From contig NZ_MQTZ01000052.1 in NCBI RefSeq assembly GCF_001939115.1, forward strand, positions 1 to 64,000: DNA of 64,000 bases. The letters run 5' to 3'. Below the pieces are notes generated by a model. The model made no database searches. It was not told the DNA's origin and saw nothing but the letters and a program-made list of their open reading frames with translations. Origin of the DNA: Leptolyngbya sp. 'hensonii'. GTDB lineage: Bacteria > Cyanobacteriota > Cyanobacteriia > GCF-001939115. This document shows, in pieces, positions 489 through 30,154 of this stretch (its first letter is position 1; every line of letters starts with the position of its first letter). The position numbers and the translations under genes were made by a program.

Positions 489-523
489 AACTGCATAACA
501 ATATTTCATTCACGACGGCAAAC

Positions 524-1081
524 ATGACTTCTCCAGATGTTCAACAGCTTCGTCAACAGATTCTTGGTTCCCGTCGAGCCAGTAATTACTGGTGGGCCAC
601 TGTGACTACTGTTGGGGCGACAGGCTTTTTGCTGGCTGGTCTTTCCAGCTATCTCCAGACTGAGCTTATTCCCTTTGCTAGTTCAACAGATTTGATCTTC
701 ATCCCCCAGGGACTGGCCATGGGGTTTTACGGTGTAGCAGGGTTGCTGCTGAGTAGTTATCTCTGGCTAATGATTCTATGGGATGTGGGGAGTGGCTACA
801 ATGAGTTCGATCGCAAAGATGGGAAGGCACGTATCTTTCGGTGGGGTTTCCCTGGTAAAAATCGCAAGATTGAAATCAACTGCGACTTGCAGGATGTGCA
901 GGCAGTGAAAGTTGATGTTAGAGAGGGGTTGAATCCTAAGCGGGTGCTTTACTTGCGGGTCAAAGGGAGAAGAGATATTCCTCTGACGCGGGTGGGTCAG
1001 CCTCTTCCCTTGTCTGAATTAGAGAGTCAGGGTGCCACGCTGGCTCGCTTTCTGGGCGTTCCATTGGAGGGGCTGTCATGA
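524..1081 (+). CDS. ycf4: Photosystem I assembly protein Ycf4
   Basis: A 185-residue protein matching the Ycf4 family in length and layout: a short polar N-terminus, two membrane segments (about 21-45 and 62-85), then a soluble C-terminal domain ([20 protein letters not shown] and on). Ycf4 is a thylakoid factor that helps assemble photosystem I; it is not part of the mature complex. The gene ends in ATGA shared with the next start, so it is translationally coupled to the cyclophilin lipoprotein. It diverges from psbD, and the promoter region carries a palindrome and an HLR1-like box, suggesting light-responsive control. Identification is confident. Confidence 0.95.
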
Positions 1082-1893: not shown

Positions 1894-1964
1894 GGATAGA
1901 CCGGTTGAAAGTGGAATATGGTGTAGCTGATGATCTTAGTCTTCTGCTACACCCTGTTTTAACT

Positions 1965-3128
1965 GTGCCTATTGAAGTTGTTGTAACCGGAATTGGCTTG
2001 ATTTCGGCCCTGGGTTCGTTGCAGGAAACCTGGCATAACTTATCTCTGGGTAAAACAGGTATTGCCGTTTCCCGTCCGTTTTCAGAACTGCCCCCTTTGC
2101 CCTTAGGACTGATAGAGGCTGCCCCCCTTGCCCTGATTCCTTTAGTTCAGATGGTCATCAGGGCTGCCTTGAAAGATGCTGCTATACATCCTCCTCTACC
2201 AGACTGTGGGATTGTCATTGGTTCTAGCCGCAGTCAGCAATCGGTTTGGGAGGGGTTGATACAAGAACAATGGCACGCTGTTGATCACGGGGTTAATCCT
2301 CCAGTCCCGTCACAGCTATCTTTAGTGAATTGGCTGGATACCCTGCCCCATCGGGTTGCGATCGTAGCCGCCCATGATGTGGGAGCAACAGGACCAGTGC
2401 TGGCTCCAATGGCTGCCTGTGCCACAGGTCTGGTGGCGATCGCTCAGGGATTTGAGCTGTTGCAAACCGGACAGTGCCAGCAAGTTCTGGTTGGGGCAGT
2501 GGAAGCTCCCATTACCCCCCTCACCCTGACGGGCTTCCGACAGATGGGGGCGATGGCCAGCACGGGGTCCTATCCCTTTGATGTGGCCCGCGAGGGTTTG
2601 GTGCTGGGGGAAGGGGGGGCCGTGCTGCTGCTGGAAACCGCTGAATCGGCAGCCACACGTCAGGCTTCTATCTACGGGCGGGTTCTGGGATTTGGGATGA
2701 CCGCAGATGCTTATCACATCAGTACGCCTGAGCCCAATGGCCGGGGGGCGATCGTGGCGGTTCAGCAGTGCCTCCAGCGCAGTCAGTTAGCGCCGAACCA
2801 GGTGCAGTACATCCATGCCCATGGCACCGCGACGGAGTTCAACGATCGCCAGGAAGCTCGATTAATTCAACATCTGTTTCCAGCGGATGTTCTGGTGAGT
2901 TCCACGAAAGGAGCTACGGGCCATACTCTGGGGGCATCGGGGGCAATGGGGGCTGCTTTCTGCTTGCTGGCTCTGAAGGAACAGCACTTGCCTCCCTGTG
3001 TGGGTTTGAATAAGGCTGCTTTTGATTTAAATCTGCTAACTGCGGCTCGATCAGCCCTGGTGAACCAGGTGTTATGTTTTAGCTTTGGATTTGGCGGTCA
3101 AAATGTGGTGGTTGCTTTGGGCCGCTAA
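1965..3128 (+). CDS. Beta-ketoacyl-ACP synthase (KAS II-like paralogue)
   Basis: The protein starts with VVVTGIGLISALG, the usual opening of FabF-type ketosynthases. I chose the GTG at 1965 because family members begin close to this motif; an in-frame TTG at 1905 would add 20 unsupported residues. The thiolase-fold catalytic triad is intact: Cys152 in AACATG, His286 in HAHGTATE and His320 in TKGATGHTLGASG. It would condense malonyl-ACP with an acyl-ACP. At about 387 residues it is slightly shorter than a housekeeping FabF (about 415), and no fab genes are adjacent, so it may be a secondary paralogue serving a specialised acyl chain; this is inference. It lies 71 bases after the cyclophilin gene in the same direction. 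Confidence 0.88.
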   Translation: MPIEVVVTGIGLISALGSLQETWHNLSLGKTGIAVSRPFSELPPLPLGLIEAAPLALIPLVQMVIRAALKDAAIHPPLPDCGIVIGSSRSQQSVWEGLIQEQWHAVDHGVNPPVPSQLSLVNWLDTLPHRVAIVAAHDVGATGPVLAPMAACATGLVAIAQGFELLQTGQCQQVLVGAVEAPITPLTLTGFRQMGAMASTGSYPFDVAREGLVLGEGGAVLLLETAESAATRQASIYGRVLGFGMTADAYHISTPEPNGRGAIVAVQQCLQRSQLAPNQVQYIHAHGTATEFNDRQEARLIQHLFPADVLVSSTKGATGHTLGASGAMGAAFCLLALKEQHLPPCVGLNKAAFDLNLLTAARSALVNQVLCFSFGFGGQNVVVALGR

Positions 3129-3130
3129 AG

Positions 3131-3177
3131 AGAAATCAGGAGCCAGAAGCCAGGATAATTCAGGTCTCCTGATTTCT
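3131..3177. terminator. 12-bp stem hairpin between convergent genes
   Basis: AGAAATCAGGAG at 3131-3142 pairs perfectly with CTCCTGATTTCT at 3166-3177, with a 23-base loop. It sits just after the ketoacyl synthase stop and before the end of the convergent pilin-like gene, so it could stop transcription in both directions. There is no clear T-run, so efficiency is uncertain. Confidence 0.5.
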
Positions 3178-3230
3178 AACTCCCGATGTCTATAATCTCC
3201 TGATGCAGGCATTAGTCTCTGTTCAGGGGT

Positions 3231-3740
3231 TTACCGATTACGGTAGACCTGTTGTGTTCCAACCCCACAAACCGCTGAGCCATCCTTGTAAGACGGGAGG
3301 GAACGAATTGCTCCAGGACTGTTCCCTCGACAAAGGATCGCCAGGGTCTTAGTTTCGCCTTTCACTGCCTTTTTATCGAGATCCGTCGCTGCTACTTCAA
3401 AGACGGCACCGATGTAACTCACCTGATTGGGATTGCGGGCCGTGCCAACGTTGTAGACGACTTTATTCGCTTTTTGAATGGAATAGGTGAAAGCGCTGTC
3501 CCCGGAGGGTCTCATTCCCAATTCATTGATGGAACTGGCAAAAGTATTCTTTTCCAGATAGAAAGCCTGCTGCGCCCGGTTCATGGCACCGACAACGCTT
3601 TGGCCCTGGGGCATGGGAGGCATGCAGGCGAAGGCAATGGGCGTGAAGGCAGATAATGCACTGACCATACAAAGGGCGATCGTGGCCTGAGTTGAGGCTG
3701 AACTTAAGAGCTTTGGCTTTTGGATTGACCGGCGCGACAT
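3231..3740 (-). CDS. Type IV pilin-like G/H domain protein with Sec-type signal
   Basis: 169 residues from the ATG at 3740, which is preceded by AGGAAGAGAG, a good ribosome binding site; an upstream in-frame GTG at 3815 looks spurious. The N-terminus is basic and followed by a hydrophobic segment ending in TPIAFAC, so it looks exported. The body (NRAQQAFYLEKNTFASSINEL, then an alternating beta pattern) matches the cyanobacterial 'type IV pilin-like G and H' family. Unlike true pilins it lacks the G-F-x-x-x-E prepilin peptidase site, so it is probably a free or anchored periplasmic protein rather than a pilus subunit. Cysteines near the C-terminus (ILCRG, SAVCGVG) could form a disulfide. Monocistronic; exact role unknown. 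Confidence 0.75.
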   Translation of the reverse strand: MSRRSIQKPKLLSSASTQATIALCMVSALSAFTPIAFACMPPMPQGQSVVGAMNRAQQAFYLEKNTFASSINELGMRPSGDSAFTYSIQKANKVVYNVGTARNPNQVSYIGAVFEVAATDLDKKAVKGETKTLAILCRGNSPGAIRSLPSYKDGSAVCGVGTQQVYRNR

Positions 3741-3968
3741 AGTTCTCTCTTCCTGATTGGGTGGAGATGGATGTTTATCTGAATACAGCCTGTAACCCTC
3801 AAGTTCCGTTGACACCTATCGGATGGGAGTCGCTACAAGTCTTTTCATGCGAGTTTTGCATCATAGGTATGCAAATTACTTATCCTGCAGTAATGGAAAA
3901 AAGCGTGAAGCAACCTCCAAAGTGCTGAGAAGCACGGTATTCTATCTACGACGAATTGGAAAAGATCC

Positions 3969-4784
3969 ATGAATCCAGAAGCTATTAATGGAATTTTGAC
4001 TACAGCCAGTTCTGTAGTCACCTCATTTGCTCTCAAATTGTTGGGGGCGATCGCCCTCTGGATCTTTGGTCGCTGGCTGATTAATTTGAGCTTAGGGTTG
4101 ATCAGACGAGGGTTAAAAGGTCGGCCCATTGAGGCTACCCTGGTTAACTACCTGATTAACATTCTGGGGGTTACCCTCCAGATTGTCCTGGTTGTTGCTA
4201 TCCTGGGCTTCTTTGGCATTGAGACCACTTCCTTCGCTGCTCTTCTGGCTGCAGCCGGAATTGCCGTTGGTGCAGCCTGGTCTGGATTGTTGGCTAACTT
4301 TGCTGCTGGTGCGTTTTTAATTATTTTCCACCCCTTTCGAGTCGGTGACTTTGTCTCAGCCGGGGGGGTGACTGGTACGGTGAAGGAGATGGGGTTATTT
4401 GTAACGACGATCGACACCCTGGATAATGTACAAACGATTATCGGGAACAACAAAATTTTTTCGGATAATATTCAAAACTTTTCCTCCAATCCCTACCGCC
4501 GGGTGGATCTGGTGGCTCAGTTGAATCATGGGGTCAGCCATCAGACAGCGATCGCCCTGTTGAAAGAGAAGCTGAGCCAGATTCCCAACGTCCTGGTGGA
4601 ACCAGCTCCAGATGTGGAAATTTTGGAGTTTAATCTGGCCGGTCCAGTACTGGCCGTCCGACCTTACTGTAACAATACCCATTACTGGCAAGTTTACTTT
4701 GATACGAACAAAATGATTCGGGAAACCTTTGGCGATGCTGGGTATCCAGTTCCAGAGCAGCACTATGCAATTCGACAGTCCTGA
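3969..4784 (+). CDS. MscS-family mechanosensitive ion channel
   Basis: 271 residues, the length of the compact MscS type. Three hydrophobic helices lie at about 18-40, 60-85 and 90-120; the last is the Gly/Ala-rich pore helix (LAAAGIAVGAAWSGLLANFA). This is followed by the MscS beta domain (FRVGDFVSAGGVTGTVKEMG, then IGNNKIFSDNIQNFS) and the alpha/beta C-terminal domain. It would open under membrane tension to release solutes on hypo-osmotic shock. Monocistronic and divergent from the pilin-like gene. Identification is firm; paralogues are usual in cyanobacteria. Confidence 0.93.
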   Translation: MNPEAINGILTTASSVVTSFALKLLGAIALWIFGRWLINLSLGLIRRGLKGRPIEATLVNYLINILGVTLQIVLVVAILGFFGIETTSFAALLAAAGIAVGAAWSGLLANFAAGAFLIIFHPFRVGDFVSAGGVTGTVKEMGLFVTTIDTLDNVQTIIGNNKIFSDNIQNFSSNPYRRVDLVAQLNHGVSHQTAIALLKEKLSQIPNVLVEPAPDVEILEFNLAGPVLAVRPYCNNTHYWQVYFDTNKMIRETFGDAGYPVPEQHYAIRQS

Positions 4785-4951
4785 AGCATGACCCCTTCAG
4801 TTGAAGCTGCGACCGTTGTTTACTGCAGAGGTGCGGAAGACGCAGAGGGTATTCTCGGCGAATTCTGCGCCTTCTCGGTTTATTTTGACCGCTGAGGGGG
4901 GACCCCCTTGCGGTACTCTAGTAAGAGTGTCTTTAGCCAGCTTTTTGACCT

Positions 4952-5935
4952 ATGTCCGCTGCCGTAACATCTCCTATCTCCAGTCCTCCCCGCCCAATTC
5001 GGATTGGCTCTCGGAAGAGTCAGCTTGCTTTGGTGCAGACCCATTGGGTGCAGGAACAGTTGCAGAGCCATTTTCCGAATCGAACTTTTGAAGTTCATAC
5101 GATGAGCACTCAGGGGGACAAAATTCTGGATGTTGCCCTGGCTAAGATTGGAGATAAGGGGCTATTTACCAAGGAATTGGAAGTGGGCATGCTGAATCAG
5201 GAGATTGATTTTGCCGTCCATTCTTTGAAAGATTTGCCGACCCGTTTGCCTGAAGGGTTGATCTTAGGGGCAGTAACGGAGCGGGTTGATCCGGCGGATG
5301 CTCTGGTGGTTCATGCCCAGCACCAAGATAAGCAAATTGACACCCTGCCAGAAGGGGCGGTCATTGGTACGTCTTCCTTACGTCGCCTGGCCCAATTGCG
5401 GCACCACTATCCCCATCTCGCGTTTAAAGACATTCGTGGCAATTTGAATACCCGGCTCCAGAAGTTGGATGCTGGGGAATATGATGCCATTATCCTGGCG
5501 GTAGCCGGGTTGCAGCGATTAGGGATGGCCGATCGCATTCACCAAACTTTACCCTCTGAGGTGTCTCTGCATGCGGTGGGGCAGGGAGCCCTAGGGATTG
5601 AGTGTCGGGCAGAGGATGCCGAGGTCCTGACCTTGCTGAAGGCGCTGGAGCATTTTCCAACTACGCAACGGTGCTATGCTGAGCGGGCCTTTCTGCGAGA
5701 GTTGGAGGGAGGCTGCCAGGTTCCGATCGGGGTTAATACGGTCCTGGATGGGGATTCTTTGACATTGATTGGCCTGGTTGCCAGTCTGGATGGTCAAAGA
5801 TTGGTGAAAGACAGTATAACTGGGGCTGCAGCCGACGCCGATCAATTGGGGATTGCTCTGGCTCACCGACTGCGGGAACAGGGAGCCCAGGAGATTTTGG
5901 ATGAGATTATCAGTCAAATGCGGGAACAGCCTTGA
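4952..5935 (+). CDS. hemC: Hydroxymethylbilane synthase (porphobilinogen deaminase)
   Basis: 327 residues. It joins four porphobilinogen molecules into hydroxymethylbilane on the way to haem and chlorophyll. Motifs: [14 protein letters not shown] at the start, [28 protein letters not shown] and the cofactor-binding loop GGCQVPIG with Cys255, which carries the dipyrromethane cofactor. Length fits the family with a short extra N-terminal stretch ([13 protein letters not shown]). It lies 167 bases after mscS in the same direction; the spacer holds no gene. Supply of tetrapyrroles fits the photosynthetic context, but no other haem genes are adjacent. Confidence 0.97.
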
Positions 5936-6071
5936 GGACTGATCACCTGTGTCAACTTACCCGGTATGATCACTATGCCAGGTGGGATCGTTCATGGGGA
6001 TGGTTCTGACTATTTTTGCTGATGAGTCTGGCTGATGTCAGCTCAGGTGGACATTCAGGGAAAAGTTCAAC

Positions 6072-7490
6072 ATGCGAATTTTATTTGTCTCGGCAGAAGC
6101 AGCTCCACTTGCCAAGGTTGGCGGTATGGGGGATGTGGTTGGAGCCCTTCCCCAGGTGCTGCGAGCCATGGGTCATGATGTCCGAATTTTCATGCCTTTT
6201 TATGGTTTTCTGTCAGACAAAGCAGCGGTTTCTAAGGAGCCGGTTTGGGAAGGCTCTGCCATGTTTCAGACCTTCCAGATTTACGAAACCGTATTAACGG
6301 GGACAGAAGTTCCGGTCTATCTGTTTGCGCATCCATCTTTTTTACCTCGACGGATTTATGGCGGAGAAGGGGAGGATTGGCGATTTACCCTGTTCGCTAA
6401 TGGTGCGGCGGAGTTTTGCTGGAATTACTGGAAGCCAGAAATTATTCACTGTCATGACTGGCATGCTGGAATGATCCCGGTGTGGATGCACCAGTCTCCT
6501 GATATCAGCACTGTGTTTACGATTCATAATCTGGCTTACCAGGGGCCCTGGCGATGGCGCTTGGAGCAAATGACCTGGTGTCCCTGGTATATGCAGGGGC
6601 ATAACACGATGGCGGCGGCGGTGCAGTATGCCGATCGGGTGACTACTGTTTCCCCTACTTATGCCCAACAGATCCAGACAGCCACTTACGGAGAAACCCT
6701 GGAAGGGTTAATGTCGTTTATCAGCGGCAAACTGAGCGGTATTCTCAATGGTATTGACACCCAGCTTTATAATCCAGCGGATGACAAGTACCTGGCTCAA
6801 ACCTTTACCGCAGATACGATCGATCGACGAGTTGCGAATAAGGTGGCGCTGCAGGAAGAGATCGGCCTGGAAGTCAACTCTAAAACATTTCTGGTCGGTA
6901 TGGTGACGCGACTGGTGGAGCAAAAAGGGTTGGATCTGGTGATTCAGATTCTGGAACGCTTCATGGCCTACACGGATGCCCAATTTATCCTTTTAGGAAC
7001 GGGCGATCGCTACTACGAGACTGCCATGTGGCAAATTGCCTCCCGTCATCCTGGGCGCATGTCGGTTTATTTGCTTTACAACGATGCCCTGTCCCGGCGA
7101 ATTTATGCGGGCTGTGATGCTTTCTTGATGCCCAGTCGGTTTGAGCCTTGCGGGATTAGTCAGTTGATGGCGATGCGCTACGGCTGTATCCCGATCGTAC
7201 GTCGGACTGGAGGTTTGGTGGATACTGTCTTACACCATGACCCCATGAACCAGGCTGGAACAGGATATTGCTTCGATCGCTACGAGCCCCTCGATTTATT
7301 CACCTGTATGATTCGGGCCTGGGAAGGCTATCACTATCGGGACAGATGGCAGGAACTCCAGCAGCGAGCTATGCAAATGGATTTCAGCTGGGATAAATCG
7401 GCCAAGCAGTATGTTCAGGTTTATAGCGATATTCTGGGTATTCCTAATGAGACGCCGGAGTTAGAAAAGCAGGCAGAAGTTGTGGGTTAG
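6072..7490 (+). CDS. glgA: Glycogen synthase (ADP-glucose type)
   Basis: 472 residues, GT5 family. It transfers glucose from ADP-glucose to growing glycogen. The ADP-glucose site is visible at the N-terminus ([13 protein letters not shown]), together with [18 protein letters not shown] and the GT-B C-terminal motif [16 protein letters not shown] followed by RRTGGL. Preceded by AGGGA about 8 bases before ATG. The last 4 bases overlap the convergent nuclease-like gene. Cyanobacteria often carry two glgA paralogues; the KVGGMGD form (rather than KTGGLGD) needs a tree to assign to GlgA1 or GlgA2. Confidence 0.95.
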
Positions 7491-8080
7491 TTCTGCAGCC
7501 CATGCAATCGGAACTCGCTTGGGGTCTGGCGCATGGGATGGTCTGGATGCCACAGCCCCACACCCAGGAGGCGAGCCTTCTCCTGAGCGCGACTCAGTCG
7601 AATGTCATACTTCAGGTTGGGCGATCGTCCAGCAGCCAGGGCCAGCCCTGCTTCCACCAATCGCTCATTCACTAAAATCCCATCTTTCCACAGGTAAATC
7701 AAGGGGCGATTCTGGCTATCCCGTTCCTGGACATCGGTTTCCATCCGGAGCCATGGTGAGGGGGCTTGCCTGGAGCCATGGGATGGGCTGGAGAGGAACT
7801 GCGCCAAGTAGTCCCTGGACTGCTGCCCCCAGGGTTCTTGCTCCAGATCCGGAGCCTCAATTCCCAGGAGCAGCACCCGTTGTAAGGGCATGTCTACGTT
7901 GCCCCCCACAATTTCCAGAGCCTGACCACTGATGACCTGGTCAACCTTGACCAGATTGCCTTTGGGTAGAGAAACTGGCTGGCAGGCGACAAGAAACAGG
8001 GCGATGAGGCTGAGTAGGATAGCAGGAATCCACCAGCGCAGAAGCGCCTGGCCCGGTAACTGATAGGGATCAATCTTCAT
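7487..8080 (-). CDS. Staphylococcal-nuclease-like (SNase/TNase) lipoprotein
   Basis: 197 residues from the ATG at 8080, which overlaps the ferredoxin stop by 11 bases; the longer start at 8167 would bury the signal peptide. A strong hydrophobic stretch ends in a lipobox (LVAC, Cys33). The rest resembles a thermonuclease domain: [20 protein letters not shown], then [20 protein letters not shown] and an [13 protein letters not shown] close. Nucleolytic activity is inferred from the family; the position matching the active-site Arg could not be confirmed. It is the last gene of a four-gene minus-strand group and ends 4 bases inside the glgA 3' end. Confidence 0.8.
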
Positions 8081-8438
8081 CCAGAGGCAACCCAAAGCGA
8101 ACTTTACCTTTGGCAAAATAGCGCCCGAACTGTAGCTCATAGACTTCATCTTCATTCTGAGTCTCAACTTCCAGGTCAGAGCGAGGATAGCTGACGCAGA
8201 GTAGGGCGTAACCCTGCTCTCTTAATTCTGGGGAGAGGCCAACGGCTTCTGGTTGATACAACTCGCCGGATAGAACTCGCACAGCGCAAGTCGTACAGGC
8301 TCCGTTGCGGCAGGAGAAAGGAAGTTCAACACCCTGATTTTCAGCACTGTGCAGAATATACCGATCCTCTGGAACCTGCACGACATAATCTGTATTGGTT
8401 TGACGATAGTGAATCCGAACCTGGTGGGAACGAGTCAT
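8070..8438 (-). CDS. Plant-type 2Fe-2S ferredoxin with C-terminal extension
   Basis: 122 residues from the ATG at 8438 (MTRSHQVRIHYRQ). An ATG at 8468, directly after the preceding stop, would add ten residues. The four iron-sulfur cysteines have plant-type spacing: CRNGACTTC (C-x4-C-x2-C), then 29 residues to the fourth Cys in ALLCVSYP. The tail after the cluster domain (EVYELQFGRYFAKGKVRFG) is longer than in PetF and marks a separate cyanobacterial ferredoxin type whose partner enzymes are not settled. It would shuttle single electrons in the cytosol. It sits between the DCC-type thiol protein and the nuclease-like lipoprotein, with overlapping or near-overlapping ends, so an operon is likely. 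Confidence 0.9.
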   Translation of the reverse strand: MTRSHQVRIHYRQTNTDYVVQVPEDRYILHSAENQGVELPFSCRNGACTTCAVRVLSGELYQPEAVGLSPELREQGYALLCVSYPRSDLEVETQNEDEVYELQFGRYFAKGKVRFGLPLDED

Positions 8439-8469
8439 GAAAAGACTTAAGAAGCGTACAGATTCCATG

Positions 8470-8919
8470 CTACTGCGGGGCTGGTCCATCGGCACTGCGA
8501 CTTTCTGCTGAAATGGAGTCGAGATCGCAACCACAGGCTGGGTAAGAGGACTGGTAAGTTGTGGGACGCTTACCGAACAGGGTATAGCGGTGATCTCGAA
8601 CGTACTCGTACAGTCGATCGACCGTCTCTTTGAGCCCTGGTAACGATCGATACGCAGGGATAAACACCTCTCCCAGGGGCAGCAACCGCCCGATCTCCTC
8701 TGCTGCTGCACTTCCCTGCCATCGGCGATCGGGAGACGCCACATTAATCAAAATCATTCCCAGTTCACAGTCTGCTGGCGTGACGTTCCAGGCTGCCAGA
8801 TCCTGCGGATTTTGCATGGGCAGATACTGAAATTGCTGTCCCCGATCCAGAGCTTGCAGCAACTGCACCAGGGTTGTACAGAGATTACAGTTACCGTCGT
8901 AAATCACGAGATAGGTCAT
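8470..8919 (-). CDS. DCC-family (DUF393) thiol-disulfide oxidoreductase-like protein
   Basis: 149 residues. The N-terminus has the family signature YDGNCNLC (Asp8, Cys11, Cys14), a thioredoxin-like CxxC redox centre. The body keeps the family's PMQNPQ and W-rich patterns and ends near VRDHRYTLFGKRP. Predicted cytosolic or loosely membrane-bound. It lies 66 bases after the PP2C phosphatase and immediately before a 2Fe-2S ferredoxin, which suggests redox linkage among these genes (inference). Substrate unknown. Confidence 0.85.
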   Translation of the reverse strand: MTYLVIYDGNCNLCTTLVQLLQALDRGQQFQYLPMQNPQDLAAWNVTPADCELGMILINVASPDRRWQGSAAAEEIGRLLPLGEVFIPAYRSLPGLKETVDRLYEYVRDHRYTLFGKRPTTYQSSYPACGCDLDSISAESRSADGPAPQ

Positions 8920-8985
8920 GGGCTGTTGTGGCGCTATTGTCTTCCCTCATAGTAGAAGAGCATCTGACATCGCTCCAGCCCCATT

Positions 8986-11349
8986 TCAGGGCAGGGGGGA
9001 TTGGAGCGGGCTACCGGGCGGCTGCACCGAGCCACATCTCTCTTCTTGAGAAGCTTCCAGAGCAGGACTACCACTTGCATAGCGAACTAATACGTCCTGT
9101 TGAATCCAGCCGATCCTCCCAGGTCTCAGTGTCCCTGGAGGCGAGTTCACCCCTGCTGGCGGAATTGAGCAAACTTCGAGCTTGAACCAGTATTCCCGAC
9201 TGGTGATTTCCTGACGGCTGATGATGCGTAGAATGGTTCCCGCAGGAAGGGGGAGAGATGGCCTGGGGGCAGAATCTGGGCCTGAGGCTGATGGCAGGGT
9301 TTGCTGGGGTCTGATTCCTGGTTGAGGCAGCAAGACTACGGTCTCTGGCAAATTCTCCGTTTGACCGGGCTGAATGGCTGGACTATTAATTTGAACCAGA
9401 GATCCAGCCGTCAGAGCAGGTAGAGTTGGGGAGGAAGTTGCAGTTGAGCTGGGTGACTCAGGAGCAGGCGCTTTCAGAGAGGGGACAGGCTCTGCAATCG
9501 GCGATAAAGGGACATCTTGTGCCATGAACAAGAAAGTCAGGACACCGCCCAGGCTGACCAAAGCCAACCCGCCCAGAAAGACTGGCCAGCTCAGGCTGAA
9601 AGGAGCCACGATCGGGCGATCGTGTCCCCGGGTTACCTGGATGGTGGCTTCTTGGGGGACTTGCCGCAACGGCAGGGAGGATTCTGAAACATGCCCCACC
9701 GACGATCGGGAGGGCTGAGCCAGGTGAGTAATCGCTGGATGAAAGGAGATGGGCTCGGCAGCTAGGCCCAACTCCTGAACCTGGCAATAAAGTAAGCCAA
9801 CGGTGACGTTGTCGTGACCATTCCAGCTATTGGCCAACTCCACCAGGTGTCTCCCGGCTGTAGCCAGGTCCAGATGACCAGTCAGGCTGGGCAACAGCTC
9901 TGTTTCCCAGAGGGCCTCCACCCGATCAAAGTCACTTAAACCATCGGAGCAGAGGAGAAAAAGACAGTCTTCATCCAGAATCAACCGTTGTGTAGTGGGA
10001 TGGAGGTTGTTGGAGTGGGCCATCCCCAACGCCTGGATTAAAGAACCAGCGACTGGATTTTGTAGGGCATCCCGGTAGAAGGTATAGCCAAGCCTGACCT
10101 CACGAGCGGCAAAGTCATCATCCAGGGTGACCTGATGGCAGCCCTGTGGCGTAATCCGGTAGGCACGGCTATCCCCCACGTGGGTGATATAGATTTCATG
10201 GCCCTGGGGCAGAGCCATCACCAGGGTCGTTCCCATGCGCTGGCGATCCTGACGGTTTTCGCTGTCATTGCGTTGGGCAATCTGATCGTTGGCAATTCGC
10301 ACAGAGTCTTCCAATCTAACAATTCGGTCAGTTGATTGGGCCTCGTTGGCAGGTACAGAAAAGGACGGAACCTGCTGACGAATGGCTTCGATCGCCAGGT
10401 TAGATGCTACATTACCTCCCTCATGCCCCCCAATCCCATCACAAACAATCAGCAGAGGCGAATCGGCTTCTGAGACTGATTCCTGCAGGTTAAACCGGCC
10501 CTGAAATCCACTGGGAGGGTAGCAGGCGTCTTCATTGCGTTGTCGGGTTGGGCCTTGGTCGGATAGGCAAACCAGTTCAACCTGGCGTGCCTGGCCCTGG
10601 CCACAGGTTTTGAGGGCTGCGTCGAGATGGGTACTGACCTGCTCGATCGCGGTGATTTGCCCGCGAGTCAGAGCAAGACACAGATCTGTAAAAAAGGGAG
10701 CGATTTCAGGTTGAGCTGGTGGGAGTTGAGACCACCAGTGGCCCAGATCGCTCAATGCTGGCTGGATGCCCAGAGGGCCATCCGATCTCAATTCCAGGAG
10801 ACGAATGAGGGAGCCCTCCGTGCGGATGAGATGAGCCTCTAGTAGGGTGGCTGCAACGCCTTCCAGATGCAAGGGGTGCCAGAGCTGGGCCATCTGCCAG
10901 AGCCAGTTCAGTTGCCGGAGGGCCGTAGCCTGACCCCAACTTTGGCCGAGGGTGGGCCATAGTGCTGTCCCCTGGGGTTGGATAGGAGCCTGCTCCAGCA
11001 AAAGGATGGGGGGCGATGAGGGGTTAGCTCCGGGGAGGGCCACGTAGGGTTGTGGGATATGAAGATGGAAAGGAAAGAGATGAAGGTAGACTTCAAACTC
11101 GTCTGTGATCTCTGCAGGAGCCTCAGGTGGGAGACCGGGCTGGGTATCTAGCAGAATCCGGGAGGTTTTCACCAGGTAGCGATCGTAGAGCATCTCACCG
11201 GGCTGCTGTGGGGTAATATCCTGTCCGGCTGCCCATAGATAGCGGGCGGGAATGGGAGTATGACAATGCCGACAAAAACGGCTGTCCTCAGGATTGAGGG
11301 TTTGACAACTGATGTTGGGGCAGTAAATGGCTGCTGTGCGGTCTTTCAT
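8986..11349 (-). CDS. Membrane-anchored PP2C Ser/Thr phosphatase with zinc ribbon
   Basis: 787 residues. The N-terminus has a zinc-ribbon-like cysteine set (CPNISC … CRHC, about 10-30). A PP2C domain spans roughly 255-520: SDQGPTRQRNEDACYPP, VCDGIGGHEGGNVASNLA, HVGDSRAYRI, LLCSDGLSDFD and HDNVTVGLL, with all the metal-binding aspartates expected. A single membrane helix lies near 590-612 (VFLGGLALVSLGGVLTFLF), then a Pro/Ser-rich linker and a small SH3-like end (GTILRIISRQEI … GWIQQDVLVRY). It would dephosphorylate Ser/Thr in the cytosol with its tail probably outside. The zinc ribbon plus PP2C plus membrane layout recurs in cyanobacteria next to Ser/Thr kinase systems; no kinase is near here. 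First gene of the minus-strand group down to 7487. Confidence 0.9.
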   Translation of the reverse strand: MKDRTAAIYCPNISCQTLNPEDSRFCRHCHTPIPARYLWAAGQDITPQQPGEMLYDRYLVKTSRILLDTQPGLPPEAPAEITDEFEVYLHLFPFHLHIPQPYVALPGANPSSPPILLLEQAPIQPQGTALWPTLGQSWGQATALRQLNWLWQMAQLWHPLHLEGVAATLLEAHLIRTEGSLIRLLELRSDGPLGIQPALSDLGHWWSQLPPAQPEIAPFFTDLCLALTRGQITAIEQVSTHLDAALKTCGQGQARQVELVCLSDQGPTRQRNEDACYPPSGFQGRFNLQESVSEADSPLLIVCDGIGGHEGGNVASNLAIEAIRQQVPSFSVPANEAQSTDRIVRLEDSVRIANDQIAQRNDSENRQDRQRMGTTLVMALPQGHEIYITHVGDSRAYRITPQGCHQVTLDDDFAAREVRLGYTFYRDALQNPVAGSLIQALGMAHSNNLHPTTQRLILDEDCLFLLCSDGLSDFDRVEALWETELLPSLTGHLDLATAGRHLVELANSWNGHDNVTVGLLYCQVQELGLAAEPISFHPAITHLAQPSRSSVGHVSESSLPLRQVPQEATIQVTRGHDRPIVAPFSLSWPVFLGGLALVSLGGVLTFLFMAQDVPLSPIAEPVPSLKAPAPESPSSTATSSPTLPALTAGSLVQINSPAIQPGQTENLPETVVLLPQPGIRPQQTLPSASGPDSAPRPSLPLPAGTILRIISRQEITSREYWFKLEVCSIPPAGVNSPPGTLRPGRIGWIQQDVLVRYASGSPALEASQEERCGSVQPPGSPLQSPLP

Positions 11350-11631
11350 GCTAGGGAGGACAAAACCAGTTCTATTGTATCGCCGCCTACTTCTGGTCGG
11401 TAGGAGCCTTGGCGGGCACAGATTGGGAGTGCTTTCAACCCTGGTGATGTGGCCTGGATCTTGGCCCGCTGCTCTGAAAATTTACAGGGATTGCCGTAAT
11501 TTCGCTGTGATCTTGTGGTTATGTAGCCTATCCATTAAGATAATTTTTTGTAACTTTAGATACGGTTTAAAAGTTTGGTGATAGCTTAGAAAAGTAGACT
11601 TACACCATGCAAGCTTTTCGGTATGTCCATT

Positions 11632-11787
11632 ATGAACAAAAATCGTCAGCAACTCTTAACAAAAGCGACAGAAGCCCATCGTGAAACGCTGCGTAAGAAT
11701 TTGCAGCATCGTTTAGAAGTGGCCAGGGCAAACGGTGATGAGAACCTGGTTCGAATCCTAGAAGCAGAAGCCAATTACATTGGTTAA
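11632..11787 (+). CDS. Small conserved cyanobacterial protein, 51 residues
   Basis: An ORF starting MNKNRQQLLTKATEAHRETL and ending LEAEANYIG before TAA. It is highly charged and predicted to be almost wholly alpha-helical. Composition, a clear stop followed 70 bases later by a strong terminator, and a 282-base leader all argue for a real gene. An in-frame ATG at 11623 would add three residues. I recall similar short proteins in cyanobacteria annotated only as hypothetical; function unknown. The stretch 11748-11758 mimics a tRNA T-loop but is coding. Confidence 0.7.
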   Translation: MNKNRQQLLTKATEAHRETLRKNLQHRLEVARANGDENLVRILEAEANYIG

Positions 11788-11856
11788 TCCACTCCAGTTA
11801 ATTTTTCCCTACCTGCTTTCTCAGCAGTCAATTTTCCAGAAACTTCCGCTGACATC

Positions 11857-11904
11857 TCTCAGAACTGAAGCTTAAGAATAGAGCGCAGTTCTGAGAATTT
11901 TTTT
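11857..11904 (+). terminator. Rho-independent terminator after the 51-residue gene
   Basis: TCTCAGAACTG (11857-11867) pairs perfectly with CAGTTCTGAGA (11886-11896), 11 bp, 18-base loop, followed by a run of seven T at 11898-11904. It fits a plus-strand factor-independent terminator. Confidence 0.85.
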
Positions 11905-12024
11905 AAAGGTGCTCTCCAGCTTCCCTGATCAGGGGTGGCAGGAGACCTCTGGATCAGGAATAGCCCCAGGGAGTTCCCTGGCTTCACCCATGAGGCCAGG
12001 GTTGCAGAGGGTAATCCTTGGGGG

Positions 12025-13893
12025 CTATGGCATTGTGCCCAGCCAGCCCATGAGCTGTTGTTTTTGCAAGGGGGTGGGCTGTTCTACAGGAATAACCTGA
12101 TATCGGGTTGGCTTGGGAGCTTCCAATATGACCCGGCAATGTTTCAGTTCATCTTGATGGAATAGGGTGAGTTGCACCTGACTGCCAGGTTGGTAATCAC
12201 GTAAGCGATCGGCTAACTGTTCTGCTGTCACCCGCAGTCCCTCGATCGCCAGCAATTCGTCTCCGGTGTCTATGCCTGCGTTTTGGGCAGGTGAATTGGT
12301 CTCTACCTGCTTCACAAGGTCGCGACCATGCTCTTGTTTCACCAGCAGGCCCAGATAGGGGGGGAGATCTGCACCCTCCTCTAGATCAGACTGGAGGGAC
12401 AGGCCGAAGGGTTCTAGGTAGTCCGCCAGAGGCAGATCGTCCGTACTGTGCAGATAGCGCTGGCGGAAGTCACTCAGGTCCAACCCTGCGACTGACTCAA
12501 TCACCGCCCACAATTGATCTTCGGTAAAGCCAATTTCCGGAACACCAAACTGCTGCCACATCTGGACCATAACCTGATTGAGGGATCGTTGATTTCCATG
12601 TTGGGTCCGGATCAGGAGATCCAGGAGCAAAGAAACCAATTCTCCTTTCAAGTAGTAAGACATTTGAGAGTTATGGCTATTGGCATCTGGGCGATAGAGC
12701 TTGATCCAGGCATCCAAGCTAGATTCACTCAAAGGCTGCACCTTGCGACCGGGTGTGGTGAGAAAACGGGTAATTTCTTTACCCAAATTATTCAGGAAAA
12801 ACTGGGCGTCGTAAATACCAGCCCAGAGCGGAATCAGCAAATCATAGTAGCTGGTTGTTCCTTCACTGAACCAGAGGGAGGGGGTGTAGTTTTCCCTGTC
12901 ATAGTCAAATTTTTCCAGAGCCAAGGGACGGATGCGCTTGATATTCCACAGATGAAAAAACTCGTGGGCCACCAGTTGCATGAAGCGATTGTACTTATCC
13001 CGATTTTGGAAGCCAAAGCGGGGGTAATTCAGGGAGCAGGCGTTTTTATGCTCCAAGCCTCCGTTACCCTGGGGAGAGAGATGAAGCAGGAAAAGGTAGC
13101 GATCGTAGGGCAGCCCCCCAAACAAGCGGGCTTCCATCTCAATCACCCGCTGAGTATCCCGCATGATGCGATCGGCATTAGCATTTCCCTCCCCCCAGAT
13201 TGCCAGTTGATGAGATTTGCCCGACACCTCAAAGGTATAGAGTTGATGATTGCCAATTTCAAAGGGACTATCTACCAGCGTGTCAAAGTCAGGGGCCAAA
13301 AAGGTAGGGTGTTGGCCAGGGACAGTCTCCAGAGGCGTTGTGACTTGCCAATCTGGGTGGGGAGGCACGATCGTCACCAGAATCGGCTGGGCTAGCTTTT
13401 CTGGAACATAAAAGAATAAGGCTGCCCCGTTGAAATATCCGTGGGTGATATCCAGGTGGTTGGTGCGGACTGACAGCTCGTTAGCATAGACCCGGTATCG
13501 GATGCTGATTTGCTCAAATTGCCTGGTCTGAACTTGCCAATGATTTTTAGCCTGTTTGTGGCAGGACAGCGGGACAGCGTTTCCCTGAGCGGACAGCCCC
13601 CAGGCTGTAAAGTCTTGAACGTGACGAGCATATTCCCGAATCAGGTAAGAACCGGGGGTCCAGACGGGCATCCTCAAATCAAGGCTGGTCCCTGGCTGGA
13701 TTCCCGTCACGGCCAGGGTCACTTCAAACAGGTGGGATGCTGGTTGGGGCATGGCGACTTGGTAATGCAAGCAGACCTCCCCAGGCTGAGATCGAGCACA
13801 ACTCCCGGCTTTGACCACAGGATTTTGGGAGGTTTCCTCGGTCACTAAGAATTCTGAAAAGGTGCTTCCAGCAGATTGTTCATCTTTCATCAT
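12025..13893 (-). CDS. M61-family peptidase with PDZ domain
   Basis: 622 residues. The family order is clear: an N-terminal beta domain (MPVWTPGSYLIREYARHV), a catalytic domain with the zinc motif HEFFHLWNIKRIRP (His310, Glu311, His314) and a third ligand in WFSEGTTSYYD (about Glu344), and a C-terminal PDZ domain (about 515-600: DLVKQVETNSPAQNAGIDTG, DELLAIEG). M61 enzymes are aminopeptidases preferring glycine or alanine. No signal peptide is evident, so it is probably cytosolic. Monocistronic. A long antisense frame over it (12514-13395) is a shadow. Confidence 0.92.
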   Translation of the reverse strand: MMKDEQSAGSTFSEFLVTEETSQNPVVKAGSCARSQPGEVCLHYQVAMPQPASHLFEVTLAVTGIQPGTSLDLRMPVWTPGSYLIREYARHVQDFTAWGLSAQGNAVPLSCHKQAKNHWQVQTRQFEQISIRYRVYANELSVRTNHLDITHGYFNGAALFFYVPEKLAQPILVTIVPPHPDWQVTTPLETVPGQHPTFLAPDFDTLVDSPFEIGNHQLYTFEVSGKSHQLAIWGEGNANADRIMRDTQRVIEMEARLFGGLPYDRYLFLLHLSPQGNGGLEHKNACSLNYPRFGFQNRDKYNRFMQLVAHEFFHLWNIKRIRPLALEKFDYDRENYTPSLWFSEGTTSYYDLLIPLWAGIYDAQFFLNNLGKEITRFLTTPGRKVQPLSESSLDAWIKLYRPDANSHNSQMSYYLKGELVSLLLDLLIRTQHGNQRSLNQVMVQMWQQFGVPEIGFTEDQLWAVIESVAGLDLSDFRQRYLHSTDDLPLADYLEPFGLSLQSDLEEGADLPPYLGLLVKQEHGRDLVKQVETNSPAQNAGIDTGDELLAIEGLRVTAEQLADRLRDYQPGSQVQLTLFHQDELKHCRVILEAPKPTRYQVIPVEQPTPLQKQQLMGWLGTMP

Positions 13894-14061
13894 GGGTCTT
13901 CATCCTTGCGTGGATTGCTGATGGCCATTCCCTGGAAGGGACTACAGGGGATGTAAAACTCCCGGTTTCGATCGCTTCTGTCCAGTCGAGGCTGGCAGTC
14001 GAAGCTGAGAGAAACGAGTCTGCTGCCAGAGTTTTAAGGAGGTGGGCGCAATTCAATTACA

Positions 14062-18115: not shown

Positions 18116-21100
18116 TTACCAGGGATTGCCGATCAGGGTGAATCCAGCCCAGTAGTAAGGGTGGGCGAGGGATTGATCCCCCAGATTCTGGAGTTCCGGG
18201 GGGAGGAGTAAGTTGCCAGCGATCGTATCGGTCATCAACCGCCCGTCTGCAATCCGGACTTTTCCCTGAAGCAAACTGATTTGGGCCTGTTGCAGGACCT
18301 CCGCTTTAATCGATCCTGTTTTGAGCTTTTCGTAAAATTCGGTCATCAGGCCCAAGGTGCCTTCATCACTGACATACCAGAGGCTGGCCATGGCTGTTTT
18401 AACCCCCGCCTGAATGGCCAGTCCAGCAAACCCCAGTTCGGCCTCTTCATCTCCCAGGGCCGTGCGGCAGGAACTCAGGACTAACAGATCAACAGGTGGA
18501 TTGTTGAGCGCCAATTGGCGGATTTCGTTCAGACGGATTTTTCGATCCCAGAACTGAATGAAAGAATTTTCTGGGGAACCTGGGCGGAATTCACTGTGGG
18601 TCGCCAGATGTACAATCCGAACTGGATCACGGCGTCGTTCGGCTACCAGAGCGCTGGGGGTAAAGGCTGCATTAAGAAACAGTTTTCCCCGCCGGAGCTT
18701 TTGGGTGATCACCGCCAGTTCCAGGGGAACGGCAGGAAGGGGGTTCTGATCGCGGAATTCGGAGGCTCCCATGGCCAGAACCTCGGCATCCTGAATGTTG
18801 GTCCGGCGGGTGTCGGTCAGGCTAATGGTGGGCATCAGGCCAACACTATATTGCTCGATGATGAAGTTGCGGCCATTGTGGAGGGCTGCGATCGGAAGCG
18901 ATCGCAGGCCCCGATCCATCAGAAAGACCAGGTTCTTAACTTGTCGTTTTTGCAGTTCTGGCTCCAAAGGATCAATTAGCCACTGATAGAGTTGCTGTGC
19001 AGGCTCTAGATAGTTGGTACTACTAGGGTTAGACACTTCGCTGCGAAACTTGCGGGCAATCCGCAGAACCTCTGTCCGAGTAATCGGCAGGCGCTTGCGG
19101 AAGGGTTGCCCCTTCGCAGTCAGAACAATCAGTTCCAGTTGATCCGTATCTTTGGGAGTAACCTCTGGTTCTGCCTGAACCAGAATCTCTGTTCGCAGGG
19201 ATGGATCAGTCCTTCCTGTCCCAGAATCAGGATCTTCGGGGCGGAGGGAGATCGGAAGCGGCACCCACGCTTCCCCGGAAACTGAAGGGCTGGTTTTGCC
19301 CTGGTTCAGGGAGGCCGTTGTCACTGGAACAAAACTGACGTAAATTAGGGCCGGTTTGATTCCTGTCCCATCTTCTACCTCGGCCAGAAGTTGACAGGCA
19401 CTATCGGCTGAACTAGTCGGGGCACTACTGACGGAACCTGAGTACTTTTCGTAAGCACTCTTAAACTTTTCTTCGGCAGTGATAAATCCAACATCCGACA
19501 GGCCGCAGAAAGGTTTCAGATCCAGTCGGGATCCTTCCAGATTGCCTGGAGGACTGTTGCGGGGGTCATCATTCTGAGATTGGATCTGCAGGTTGATAAC
19601 CCCCGGATTTGAAAAAGATAACGGGCTGGTAAAACTGCCATCGTTGATGTCGGCAGCCTGAACCGTAAAGGAGTCTGGTGTTGTGGTGTTAGAGAAGGGA
19701 CTATAGACGACCAGGGTTCCTGCTGATAGAGGGCTGCCGGGGGTTAAAGCAACACCACCGACCGTCAGGGTGCCCTGGGTCGGTAGGGAGGTCAGAATCA
19801 GTTGGGTCACATCCCCGTTGGGGTCAAGCACAGAAATAATACTGGCCAGGGGGAGGCTCACAGATCCACCGGCAGCGGTGGGCAGGGTAATCACTGCAGG
19901 ACTGATCAGGGGTGCATTGTTGCTGGAGGTAATGCTGATACTGCCAGATGGTGTAACAGTGGTGGTCGTCGGTAAGATGGGAAAAACTGTAACCGGATTA
20001 ACAGCGGCTACACCACTCTGGAAAAGGGCTCCGACAGTTCCATTGCTTATGGCATTCCCGACAATAAACGGCACATTGTTGGGGCCACCCGCCTGCTGAA
20101 TTTGGATCGTTCCGGCTGTCCCAGCCCCAAACCCTGATGTGTTAATGGTGTTAGCCGTGATACCAATCACACCAGTTCCCTGAACCACTCCCTGCTGGGC
20201 CGAGATCGTCACATCTCCCCCAAACCCAGGTGGAAACACAGAACTCCCGATTCCCTGGGTGTTGATCGAGGTGAAGGTGACGTTATTGCCTGCCAGGATG
20301 GTTACGTCTCCGCCGATCGCAGGGACGGTGACTGATGCGGCACTGGTGTTCACGTTACCCACCGTGATATTGCCCGGAGCCTGCAGGATAACGGGACCAC
20401 TAACGGGATCACCCGTCAGGAATGTGGTGATGTTGCCGGTGGAAATGTTCCCTGCCGTTGTTCGCAAAATTACTGCTCGGCTACCTGTCAAGATGGCGGA
20501 GTCCGGGTCGCCTGTGGCTGTTGCATCCGGAGCATTGATGGTGATGTCCCCAGTAAACGTAATCGTGCCGCCTGCCTGAACTTTTAAGGAGGCCCCTGTA
20601 TAGGAACCTGAGGTATAACTGCCGGGGGCTGTGATAATCGGGTCATAAAAGCTGACAAAGGTTCCTGGTTGACCAGCCAGAGTAAGGATGGCAAAGTTGC
20701 CACCACTGTTAAAGTGACTATCCCCAGAGACTAAACCATTGCTGATCAAGGTCAGATTTCCCCCACTCTGGAAGGGAGCCCCCTGATCCAGGTTATTCAG
20801 GGCCAGAATATCGATCGCCTGGGCACCTTGGATCGTCAGATTGCTGCCAGATTGCACCACCAGGGAGCCATTTAACCCTTCCCGGAAGCGAACTGCATTG
20901 TTAGCCATCACAGTCACATCCCCGGCAGCCTGAATTTTCTGGGTGATGACCACATCCCCTGACTGAATCTGGAGCCCAGACCCGGTTAACTCAACCTGAC
21001 CCTGGTTATTAACGGTTAATCCCGTCGCATTACTGCCCGTTCCACCCGTTAACAATTCTGGCAGGGACACGATCGGCACAGAAAGGGGTGGGGAGCTTTT

Positions 21101-21814
21101 GCTAGGTTGGATTTCCAGACTTAAGGGACTCCCCGCTTGACTCAGCTTCACCAAACTTTGCCCTGGGACCGAGGAAATCAGAATCTGGCCGTTGGGTGCG
21201 CTCAGGGAACCAGTGCTGACTACGGTCCCCCCGATCAAAGTGAGGTTCTGGCCGACAGTCAAATTCCCACTATTGACGATCGCCCCCGGTTGCAGCCCCT
21301 GAAAGCCAAATCGATCGGGACTGCCCGTCAGGGCTGTGTAATTGTTAGGTTTTAAGGCACCAAATGGGTTATTCCCAAATCCGATACTGGTGGCTGTCGT
21401 GGCGGTAAAGGAGGCAGGGACATTCAGGATAGCCGTGGATCCAAAAATAATTCCTGCCGGGTTCATTAAATAGAGGTTGGGGCTGCCTCCAGTAACCTGG
21501 ATCAGACCGTTGATAACGGAGGGATCACCCCCTGTGACCCGACCCAGAATATTTTGCAGGGTCGGGGTGGCTAGGAAGTTGGCAATTTGGTCACTATTTA
21601 GATTGAACTGGAGAAAACTGTGGAACAGGTTGATTTGATCTGCCGAGAGTTGCCCACCTGTGATGTTGAACTGATTGCCATTCGGCATCACGATCGTATT
21701 GGTGCCATCCGTTGCTGGAATGACCGTCTGGGCTATCCAGAGAGGCTGAGGTGCGGGGGCCACGATCGGTCTTGACTGAAGCGTGATCGCCATCAGGCTG
21801 GAAGGGAAGAGCAT
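18116..21814 (-). CDS. Two-partner-secretion exoprotein fused to a CHAT protease domain
   Basis: 1232 residues. Residues about 30-270 form a filamentous-haemagglutinin N-terminal (TPS) domain: NGNQFNITGGQ, LYLMNPAGIIFG, NYTALTGSPDRFGFQ. A long Gly/Thr/Val-rich beta-helix-like region follows to about 650, then a cadherin/RapA2-like segment (about 660-800). From about 830 to the end is a CHAT domain, a caspase-like protease fold, with the expected catalytic pair His1073 in HLATHSEF and Cys1116 in VLSSCRTALGD, closing with a typical YYWAGFTLIGNPW. The TPS domain implies export across the outer membrane by a TpsB/FhaC pore, which is not in this window. The N-terminus is a weak signal peptide. Cyanobacteria have many such fusions; target unknown. 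Confidence 0.9.
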   Translation of the reverse strand: MLFPSSLMAITLQSRPIVAPAPQPLWIAQTVIPATDGTNTIVMPNGNQFNITGGQLSADQINLFHSFLQFNLNSDQIANFLATPTLQNILGRVTGGDPSVINGLIQVTGGSPNLYLMNPAGIIFGSTAILNVPASFTATTATSIGFGNNPFGALKPNNYTALTGSPDRFGFQGLQPGAIVNSGNLTVGQNLTLIGGTVVSTGSLSAPNGQILISSVPGQSLVKLSQAGSPLSLEIQPSKSSPPLSVPIVSLPELLTGGTGSNATGLTVNNQGQVELTGSGLQIQSGDVVITQKIQAAGDVTVMANNAVRFREGLNGSLVVQSGSNLTIQGAQAIDILALNNLDQGAPFQSGGNLTLISNGLVSGDSHFNSGGNFAILTLAGQPGTFVSFYDPIITAPGSYTSGSYTGASLKVQAGGTITFTGDITINAPDATATGDPDSAILTGSRAVILRTTAGNISTGNITTFLTGDPVSGPVILQAPGNITVGNVNTSAASVTVPAIGGDVTILAGNNVTFTSINTQGIGSSVFPPGFGGDVTISAQQGVVQGTGVIGITANTINTSGFGAGTAGTIQIQQAGGPNNVPFIVGNAISNGTVGALFQSGVAAVNPVTVFPILPTTTTVTPSGSISITSSNNAPLISPAVITLPTAAGGSVSLPLASIISVLDPNGDVTQLILTSLPTQGTLTVGGVALTPGSPLSAGTLVVYSPFSNTTTPDSFTVQAADINDGSFTSPLSFSNPGVINLQIQSQNDDPRNSPPGNLEGSRLDLKPFCGLSDVGFITAEEKFKSAYEKYSGSVSSAPTSSADSACQLLAEVEDGTGIKPALIYVSFVPVTTASLNQGKTSPSVSGEAWVPLPISLRPEDPDSGTGRTDPSLRTEILVQAEPEVTPKDTDQLELIVLTAKGQPFRKRLPITRTEVLRIARKFRSEVSNPSSTNYLEPAQQLYQWLIDPLEPELQKRQVKNLVFLMDRGLRSLPIAALHNGRNFIIEQYSVGLMPTISLTDTRRTNIQDAEVLAMGASEFRDQNPLPAVPLELAVITQKLRRGKLFLNAAFTPSALVAERRRDPVRIVHLATHSEFRPGSPENSFIQFWDRKIRLNEIRQLALNNPPVDLLVLSSCRTALGDEEAELGFAGLAIQAGVKTAMASLWYVSDEGTLGLMTEFYEKLKTGSIKAEVLQQAQISLLQGKVRIADGRLMTDTIAGNLLLPPELQNLGDQSLAHPYYWAGFTLIGNPW

Positions 21815-21952
21815 CGGTCAACCTCCTGGATGGGCAGCACATCCAGACTAGCCCACCCCTCAACCAAAAGCCAAAAAACGATCGGCAGGCTGAGCATCAG
21901 GAACTATTTGGTTCTCTCTATGGCTGCGGATAGGGGCTTTCCTGACAGAAGC

Positions 21953-29242: not shown

Positions 29243-30154
29243 ATGACTCCTTTACTTCGCTGCACATTACTACTTGTGACCCTGCTGGCTGTTCCGATCT
29301 GCGTGATAGAGCAAAGCGTTGCTGGTCTCTCTCCTGAAGTGCCGAGGCCACGTCAGATTAATCCTATTGCCCTGGGTAATACTGATTCCTTGGGGTCTGG
29401 TAATCGGCTCAAGTGTGGTTACGTGAAGGATATGAAGTACGCTCCACCTCCGACTAAAGCCCCTGATGGAGCCAATCGGGTCGCAGTAGAAGAGCCATTA
29501 AACCGCTGTGGTGGTGCGAGAACGGTAGACGGTAGGTTCGCAGTGGCTATCCTGCCCAGTTCAGGGTTTAGTCAAACCCTGGCAGAGTATCCGACATTCC
29601 TTATCTACATGCCTTTTACGTCGGTTCAGGAGGGTATCTTTAGCCTGTCAACCAGCCCTAACAGCTATCCCTACTACCAGGCAAGAGCCCAGTTGACGGG
29701 TAACCGAGGGATTATTCGTTTTCAGTTGCCTTCCAGTGCGCCTAACCTGGTGGCTGGTAAAAAGTATTTCTGGCAGTTTAGATTTAGCGCTGTGACCAAT
29801 GAAAGTGAGAATCAGCTACTGGTGATTCGGGGGCAGATTCAGCGCATTAATGCCAGCGCAACTCTCCAGAATCAGCTTGCGATAGCTGCCCCAAGGCAGA
29901 AAGCCGCAATCTATGCTAATAACGGGATCTGGCAGGATGCCCTCACAACACTGGCCCAACTGAAGTGTGCCAATCCTGGCGATCAGGGCATTGCTAGCGA
30001 TTGGTCTTCCCTGCTACAACAGGTTGAATTAAAAGAATTGGCCATGGAACCCATTATTGGGGTTACGGTGCAGCCAGACAAAAAGATTACTACGAAGAAA
30101 ACTCCCAACTCGACTGGTCCAGGACCCACATCCTGTCCCCTCTACCTTAAATAA
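29243..30154 (+). CDS. DUF928 domain protein, exported
   Basis: 303 residues. An N-terminal signal peptide (about 1-27, LLRCTLLLVTLLAVPICV) suggests a periplasmic protein. The body carries the DUF928 pattern: PDGANRVAVEEPLNRCGGA, YPTFLIYMP, FSLSTSP and YFWQFRF, with a C-terminal helical part (LAIAAPRQKAAIYANNGIWQ). DUF928 is common in cyanobacteria, often near CHAT-type or TPR secreted proteins; its function is not known. Monocistronic and convergent with the CMD-like gene 26 bases on. Confidence 0.83.
   Translation: MTPLLRCTLLLVTLLAVPICVIEQSVAGLSPEVPRPRQINPIALGNTDSLGSGNRLKCGYVKDMKYAPPPTKAPDGANRVAVEEPLNRCGGARTVDGRFAVAILPSSGFSQTLAEYPTFLIYMPFTSVQEGIFSLSTSPNSYPYYQARAQLTGNRGIIRFQLPSSAPNLVAGKKYFWQFRFSAVTNESENQLLVIRGQIQRINASATLQNQLAIAAPRQKAAIYANNGIWQDALTTLAQLKCANPGDQGIASDWSSLLQQVELKELAMEPIIGVTVQPDKKITTKKTPNSTGPGPTSCPLYLK

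Follow-up and report, generated by a model that had tools for sequence, protein, structure and literature searches.

A probable TPS-domain exoprotein fused to a CHAT protease module in Leptolyngbya sp. 'hensonii', and its setting among putatively exported CHAT proteases of cyanobacteria

What would a CHAT protease be doing at the end of a protein built for two-partner secretion (TPS)? Most of what is known of CHAT proteases concerns defence and cell division. The question is raised by one gene of Leptolyngbya sp. 'hensonii', at positions 18116-21814 on the minus strand of the 64,000-nucleotide stretch of DNA that was analysed (the window), whose product an earlier note, written from the letters alone, had read as an exported, possibly contact-dependent or self-processing protease. 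The gene is a real open reading frame of 1232 codons, stop-free throughout, with AGGAGG placed 7 bases upstream of its ATG.

Profile searches bear out both ends of the architecture that had been proposed. The filamentous-haemagglutinin N-terminal domain is recognised as PF05860 (residues 34-229, E 4.6e-38), and the CHAT domain as PF12770 (residues 937-1230, E 5.4e-71), the latter spanning profile positions 2-289 of 289 with a bit score of 239.8 against Pfam's curated cut-off of 24. The N-terminal region also matches, at residues 64-142, the NCBIfam model of the NPXG haemagglutinin motif (TIGR01901, E 4e-22); a Pfam scan found no domain besides TPS and CHAT in the 1232-residue protein. We place the TPS secretion domain, which carries NPAG at residue 118, at 21128-21715 (minus strand, as for all parts of this gene), on the strength of these profiles and of a fold match to HMW1, EtpA, HxuA and FHA.

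Between the two ends lies a region that was modelled with AlphaFold2 as part of the N-terminal portion of the protein (763 residues from residue 29, pLDDT 80), and which comprises a long beta-helix, a beta-sandwich and a low-confidence linker. The beta-rich repeats that had been described appear in the model as a helix-like stack of short strands up to approximately residue 600, and the corresponding passenger, a fast-diverging beta-helix with approximate borders at 19940-21127, is supported by the model, the EtpA profile and identity to paralogues. The cadherin-like piece is plausible as far as the model goes, with Ig/cadherin-like strands at model residues 598-707 (protein residues ~626-735; a beta-sandwich at 19613-19939, borders again approximate), but its sequence match to the bacterial Ig profile Big_9 falls just under the cut-off when this stretch is searched alone (E 2.8e-4). 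The linker that follows (19480-19612; pLDDT below 50 at model residues 710-751) is probably disordered and would be the likeliest site of processing, if processing occurs as we infer. The remainder, at 18119-19500, is a CHAT module consisting of a pre-CHAT region and the CHAT domain itself.

When the full-length sequence was searched against solved structures there was no match, and a profile search with the CHAT module gave no convincing one, so structural comparison of this module rests on its predicted model. Structure prediction, which the earlier note had suggested as a check, yielded a confident model for residues 754-1232 (pLDDT 88, pTM 0.86, from 32 aligned sequences) with fold matches in peptidase clan CD. 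Foldseek ranked Csx29/TPR-CHAT first (8eex, E 7e-14), followed by separases (5fc3, E 5e-7), the DdvA anti-sigma factor (8rw5, 8rot; E 4e-6) and gingipain RgpB (4ief, E 4e-4). For the N-terminal model, Foldseek matches were to the secretion domains of HMW1, EtpA, HxuA, FHA and HpmA, and the N-terminal sequence profile matched EtpA, a two-partner-secreted adhesin, with E 6e-48.

These matches allow the protein to be set against systems of known function. It resembles TpsA exoproteins (FHA, HMW1, HxuA, EtpA) in its TPS domain with NPxG, its beta-helix and its fold and profile matches, and departs from them in ending in CHAT, in having no TpsB beside it and in lacking a recognisable signal peptide. 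Gingipains are secreted members of the separase/gingipain superfamily; the CHAT model is like both separase and gingipain in fold, at an identity of approximately 10-12% over the match. DdvA, despite its fold match, is an anti-sigma factor with a transmembrane segment, unlike the fusion. HetF, a cyanobacterial divisome and heterocyst protein of the CHAT family (PMC8406250), differs in having its CHAT domain N-terminal, together with a transmembrane segment and TPRs, and neither TPS domain nor beta-helix. The comparison with Csx29 of Craspase (type III-E CRISPR; PMC9729208, PMC10028731), which the earlier note had drawn, holds for the CHAT fold and the His/Cys dyad and stops there: the fusion has no TPR match, neither Cas7-11 nor Csx30 was seen beside the gene, and Csx29 acts inside the cell, in a crRNA complex, while relatives of the fusion are equipped with export signals. 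The neighbouring proteins that were scanned with Pfam include no Cas protein. We considered a Craspase-like role in defence and rejected it, as no defence-gene context was seen and the sole PADLOC match was weak (BovA, E 7e-4).

The active site is intact as the earlier note had claimed, with His1073 in HLATH (codon 18596-18598) and Cys1116 in SSCRTA (codon 18467-18469). Neither residue varies in any of the 59 fused or 55 unfused CHAT domains compared, and Asp1150 is likewise invariant in all 114, a pattern that has the look of selection for catalysis. Located beyond the next strand after the Cys, Asp1150 might be the acid giving basic P1 specificity, by comparison with Asp1082 of the separase model (PMC4626109), although this is only a lead. 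The TPS domain shares 65-67% identity with the two paralogues described below, the stalk 27-28% and the CHAT module 56-60%; among relatives, identity over the CHAT module is 44-57%. Comparison of the window copy with its paralogues shows fewer changes at first and second codon positions than at third positions within the TPS and CHAT parts, as would be expected under purifying selection.

The first 29 residues (21728-21814) stand in the place of a signal peptide, and none is recognisable there. Export was assessed with a hydrophobicity heuristic checked by eye, under which 56/58 fusions with a complete start have, ahead of the TPS domain, a stretch that resembles a signal peptide and in most cases ends in AQ or the like. 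The N-terminus of the window copy, MLFPSSLMAITLQSRPIVAPAPQPLWIAQ, scores 1.68, the second lowest of the 58 (median 2.34), and internal segments reach this value in 14% of cases and a value of 2.0 in 7%. It contains an Arg mid-stretch, and an in-frame TGA lies two codons before the ATG. A hydrophobic stretch, FLMLSLPIVFWLLVEGWASL, is found upstream of the gene in another frame (window 21815-21910, minus strand). The window-copy N-terminus may be a weak signal, a lost signal or the product of an assembly error. Signal-peptide-like N-termini are also present in free-standing CHAT proteins of approximately 460-500 residues and in at least 22 of the ~30 CHAT proteins of this genome, and the two paralogues have clear signal peptides. 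Export as previously proposed is supported for the family, with TpsB genes available elsewhere in the genome, but not for the window copy, whose signal peptide cannot be recognised. A periplasmic or membrane location, reached without crossing the outer membrane, may be an alternative.

By its relatives the genome is cyanobacterial, and it contains 33 CHAT, 9 TPS and 6 POTRA_2 places. A search for the paralogues and the TpsB partner that the earlier note had wished to see located returned two further TPS-CHAT fusions, a tandem pair on C12 that brings the total to three, and ShlB-type TpsB genes at C43 and C42 (Pfam-confirmed) and C41 (by profile). Further afield, the fusion occurs in 49/78 homologous loci of GTDB genomes, 48 of them cyanobacterial; the exception comes from a Myxococcales MAG, on a contig of 4.8 kb (L123, JABSQW010000440.1, 286-4845), and may reflect transfer or contamination. 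Matches at E 1e-30 were found in 48/59 comparison genomes, the genome itself included, in part to just one of the two domains, CHAT or TPS; the 58 others are all of the same class and none is closer. One homologue covering 81% of the query is on a plasmid record of Kovacikia minuta (NZ_CP083583.1), a 1.2-Mb replicon that contains seven matching places. The TPS-CHAT architecture is ordinary in cyanobacteria, and both halves of it are already named in public records. A full-text literature search, outside which most subscription papers lie, returned no published account of the fusion or its role, and as far as the searched literature shows it is functionally unexplored. An Anabaena exoproteome paper mentions neither TPS nor CHAT domains. 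A Nostoc water extract yielded a peptide, SLSLLGGTVV, that was attributed to a 'CHAT domain-containing protein' (PMC9895726) and is similar to NLTLIGGTVV, a stalk motif of the window protein; we did not accept it as evidence of secretion, given its weak score and its origin in an extract, not a secretome.

The immediate surroundings of the gene agree with what had been noted. A profile search found no TpsB gene anywhere in the window, let alone beside the fusion, and the flanking genes encode a lipid-A-disaccharide synthase-related protein (TIGR03492) downstream and a DUF1574 protein (Pfam) upstream, neither of them an immunity gene. A DUF928 protein is encoded 7.4 kb away on the opposite strand (29243-30154, plus strand; E 2.5e-48), and its link to the fusion is uncertain. 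No DUF928 site of this genome is more than 10 kb from the nearest TPS, TpsB or CHAT gene.

Across seven whole genomes, TPS, TpsB, CHAT, CHASE2 and DUF928 genes cluster far above chance, in a consistent pattern. Fusions account for 16/47 TPS places in these genomes. The 31 unfused TPS genes have within 10 kb a CHAT gene in 13 cases (1.7 expected), TpsB in 8 (0.3 expected), CHASE2 in 8 (1.1 expected) and DUF928 in 7 (0.6 expected), where the expectations are Poisson and take neighbouring paralogues as independent, making the P values too optimistic. For the fusions themselves, the corresponding counts are 3/16 for CHASE2, 3/16 for DUF928 and 2/16 for TpsB. In the separate GTDB set of 49 fusion loci, the commonest recurrent neighbours are CHASE2 (near 14), TpsB (9-10), DUF928 (7) and a DUF4347/RTX giant; the last of these is near fusions at 5/49 loci (e.g. 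L116, 12684-20507). The unfused layout occurs three times in the genome of the window, as TpsA-TpsB-CHAT on C43 (L125) and TpsA-CHAT on C20 (L126) and C49 (L127). In a CHAT tree, fused and short free-standing CHATs group together in a well-supported region, from which the generic TPR-CHATs are separate; the C43 and C20 rows have their CHATs at the base of this region, and the CHAT of the C49 row falls among the generic TPR-CHATs. This tree was built by a quick method and has long branches.

Two gene rows of the same genome are worth describing individually. At L126 (C20:48001-68000), positions 1250-13960 hold seven genes on one strand, in the order SpoIIE phosphatase, sigma-70 region 4 protein, DUF1822, CHAT-CHASE2, DUF928, TpsA and TPR-CHAT, a run that links the EACC2-caspase/DUF1822/sigma systems (PMC8195603) to the TPS-CHAT group. 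At L178 (C12:52000-58500), positions 3-4656 hold a row of DUF928, CHASE2-GGDEF-EAL and a free-standing CHAT with a signal-peptide-like N-terminus.

Genes found next to each other in some genomes and as a fusion in others generally work together. Our main argument follows from this: because TPS and CHAT genes show both layouts, the CHAT protease would be expected to act on or with the exoprotein. We give about an even chance to the reading that the fusion is a TpsA-type exoprotein bearing a CHAT protease active outside the cytoplasm, most likely for processing. The TPS domain would be one that a TpsB pore (ShlB/FhaC-type), with its gene elsewhere in the genome, can recognise, the beta-helix would form the extended stalk of the exoprotein, and the C-terminal CHAT module would be an active Cys/His protease of separase/caspase fold working extracytoplasmically. 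It may cut its own exoprotein, a partner exoprotein or a surface protein, leading to maturation or release; the unfused counterpart would be a TpsA gene beside one for an exported TPR-CHAT protein, with a TpsB gene intervening at one site. This reading predicts that the module is proteolytically active on such a target, that a TpsB is used in trans and that the window copy is exported. Self-processing of the fusion can reasonably be inferred. Caspase-like domains in large bacterial surface proteins have been proposed as autoproteolytic (PMC3482391). The same survey gives HINT alone as the processing protease of the type V route, so the combination of TPS and CHAT is absent from its table. Counting against the exoprotein-protease reading are the absence of a recognisable signal peptide in the window copy and of an adjacent TpsB gene, TpsB being within 10 kb of only 2/16 fusions.

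The main rival for the window copy is that it is a decaying or re-purposed paralogue that has lost its signal peptide and is cytosolic, the function being left to the tandem copies on C12. We regard this as doubtful. Its N-terminus, the second least hydrophobic of 58 with an Arg inside and an in-frame stop just upstream, the out-of-frame hydrophobic stretch FLMLSLPIVFWLLVEGWASL and the clear signal peptides of the C12 paralogues are all what such a history might leave behind; against it, the copy retains 1232 codons with no stop or frameshift, intact catalytic residues, constrained codon positions in its TPS and CHAT parts and a strong ribosome-binding site before its ATG, and a sequencing or assembly error near its start is possible. 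A toxin of the CDI-like or polymorphic kind, whose CHAT domain would be delivered into neighbouring cells to kill them, has the right layout, a TPS domain with a C-terminal enzymatic domain, and caspase-like C-terminal toxins have been described for other secretion routes (PMC3482391). We nevertheless consider it very improbable, because the CHAT end is conserved (44-57% over the module, and 56-60% to paralogues vs 27-28% in the stalk) where a polymorphic C-terminus would be expected to vary. No immunity gene adjoins the fusion in the window, a motif search found neither VENN nor NxE/QYN in the protein, and the commonest neighbours recurring at the 49 loci are those named above. The possible contact-dependent action raised in the earlier note therefore finds no support.

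For the family as a whole, the main rival is a sensory role, in which exported CHAT protease and DUF928 are outer parts of a CHASE2 pathway and cleavage at the surface or in the periplasm makes a signal that is read by CHASE2, with a cyclase, histidine kinase or GGDEF-EAL output; this direction of signal flow is putative. The CHASE2 genes near 14/49 fusion loci do have cyclase, kinase and GGDEF-EAL outputs, and DUF928 genes lie within 10 kb of CHASE2 in 20/35 cases (1.2 expected) and of TPS in 11/35 (0.9 expected) in the seven genomes. The DUF928-CHASE2-exported CHAT cluster at L178 is of the sort this pathway would predict, a signalling role has been proposed for related EACC2-caspase-CHASE2 systems that include a sigma factor and DUF1822 (PMC8195603), and one such cluster runs directly into DUF928-TpsA-CHAT at L126. 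However, CHASE2 is within 10 kb of only 3/16 fusions in whole genomes, the window gene not being one of them, and we judge this sensory role to be unlikely.

What makes the locus of moderate interest is the picture, across the family, of exported CHAT proteases. Most CHAT proteases of the cyanobacteria examined have export signals, and none has lost its active site. We tentatively suggest, as a possibility somewhat short of probable, that the exported CHAT branch of cyanobacteria (free, TPR-linked and TpsA-fused) carries out extracytoplasmic proteolysis tied to TpsB, DUF928 and CHASE2. If this is true, separase-like proteolysis would have been relocated to the cell surface, where it would serve in exoprotein maturation and in sensing; and if they are active outside the cytoplasm, CHAT proteases would form a class of their own, new among the proteases that act in maturation or signalling at the surface. 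A large and so far unstudied set of genes, with 33 CHAT places in this one genome, would then also have a function, and DUF928 would gain a context.
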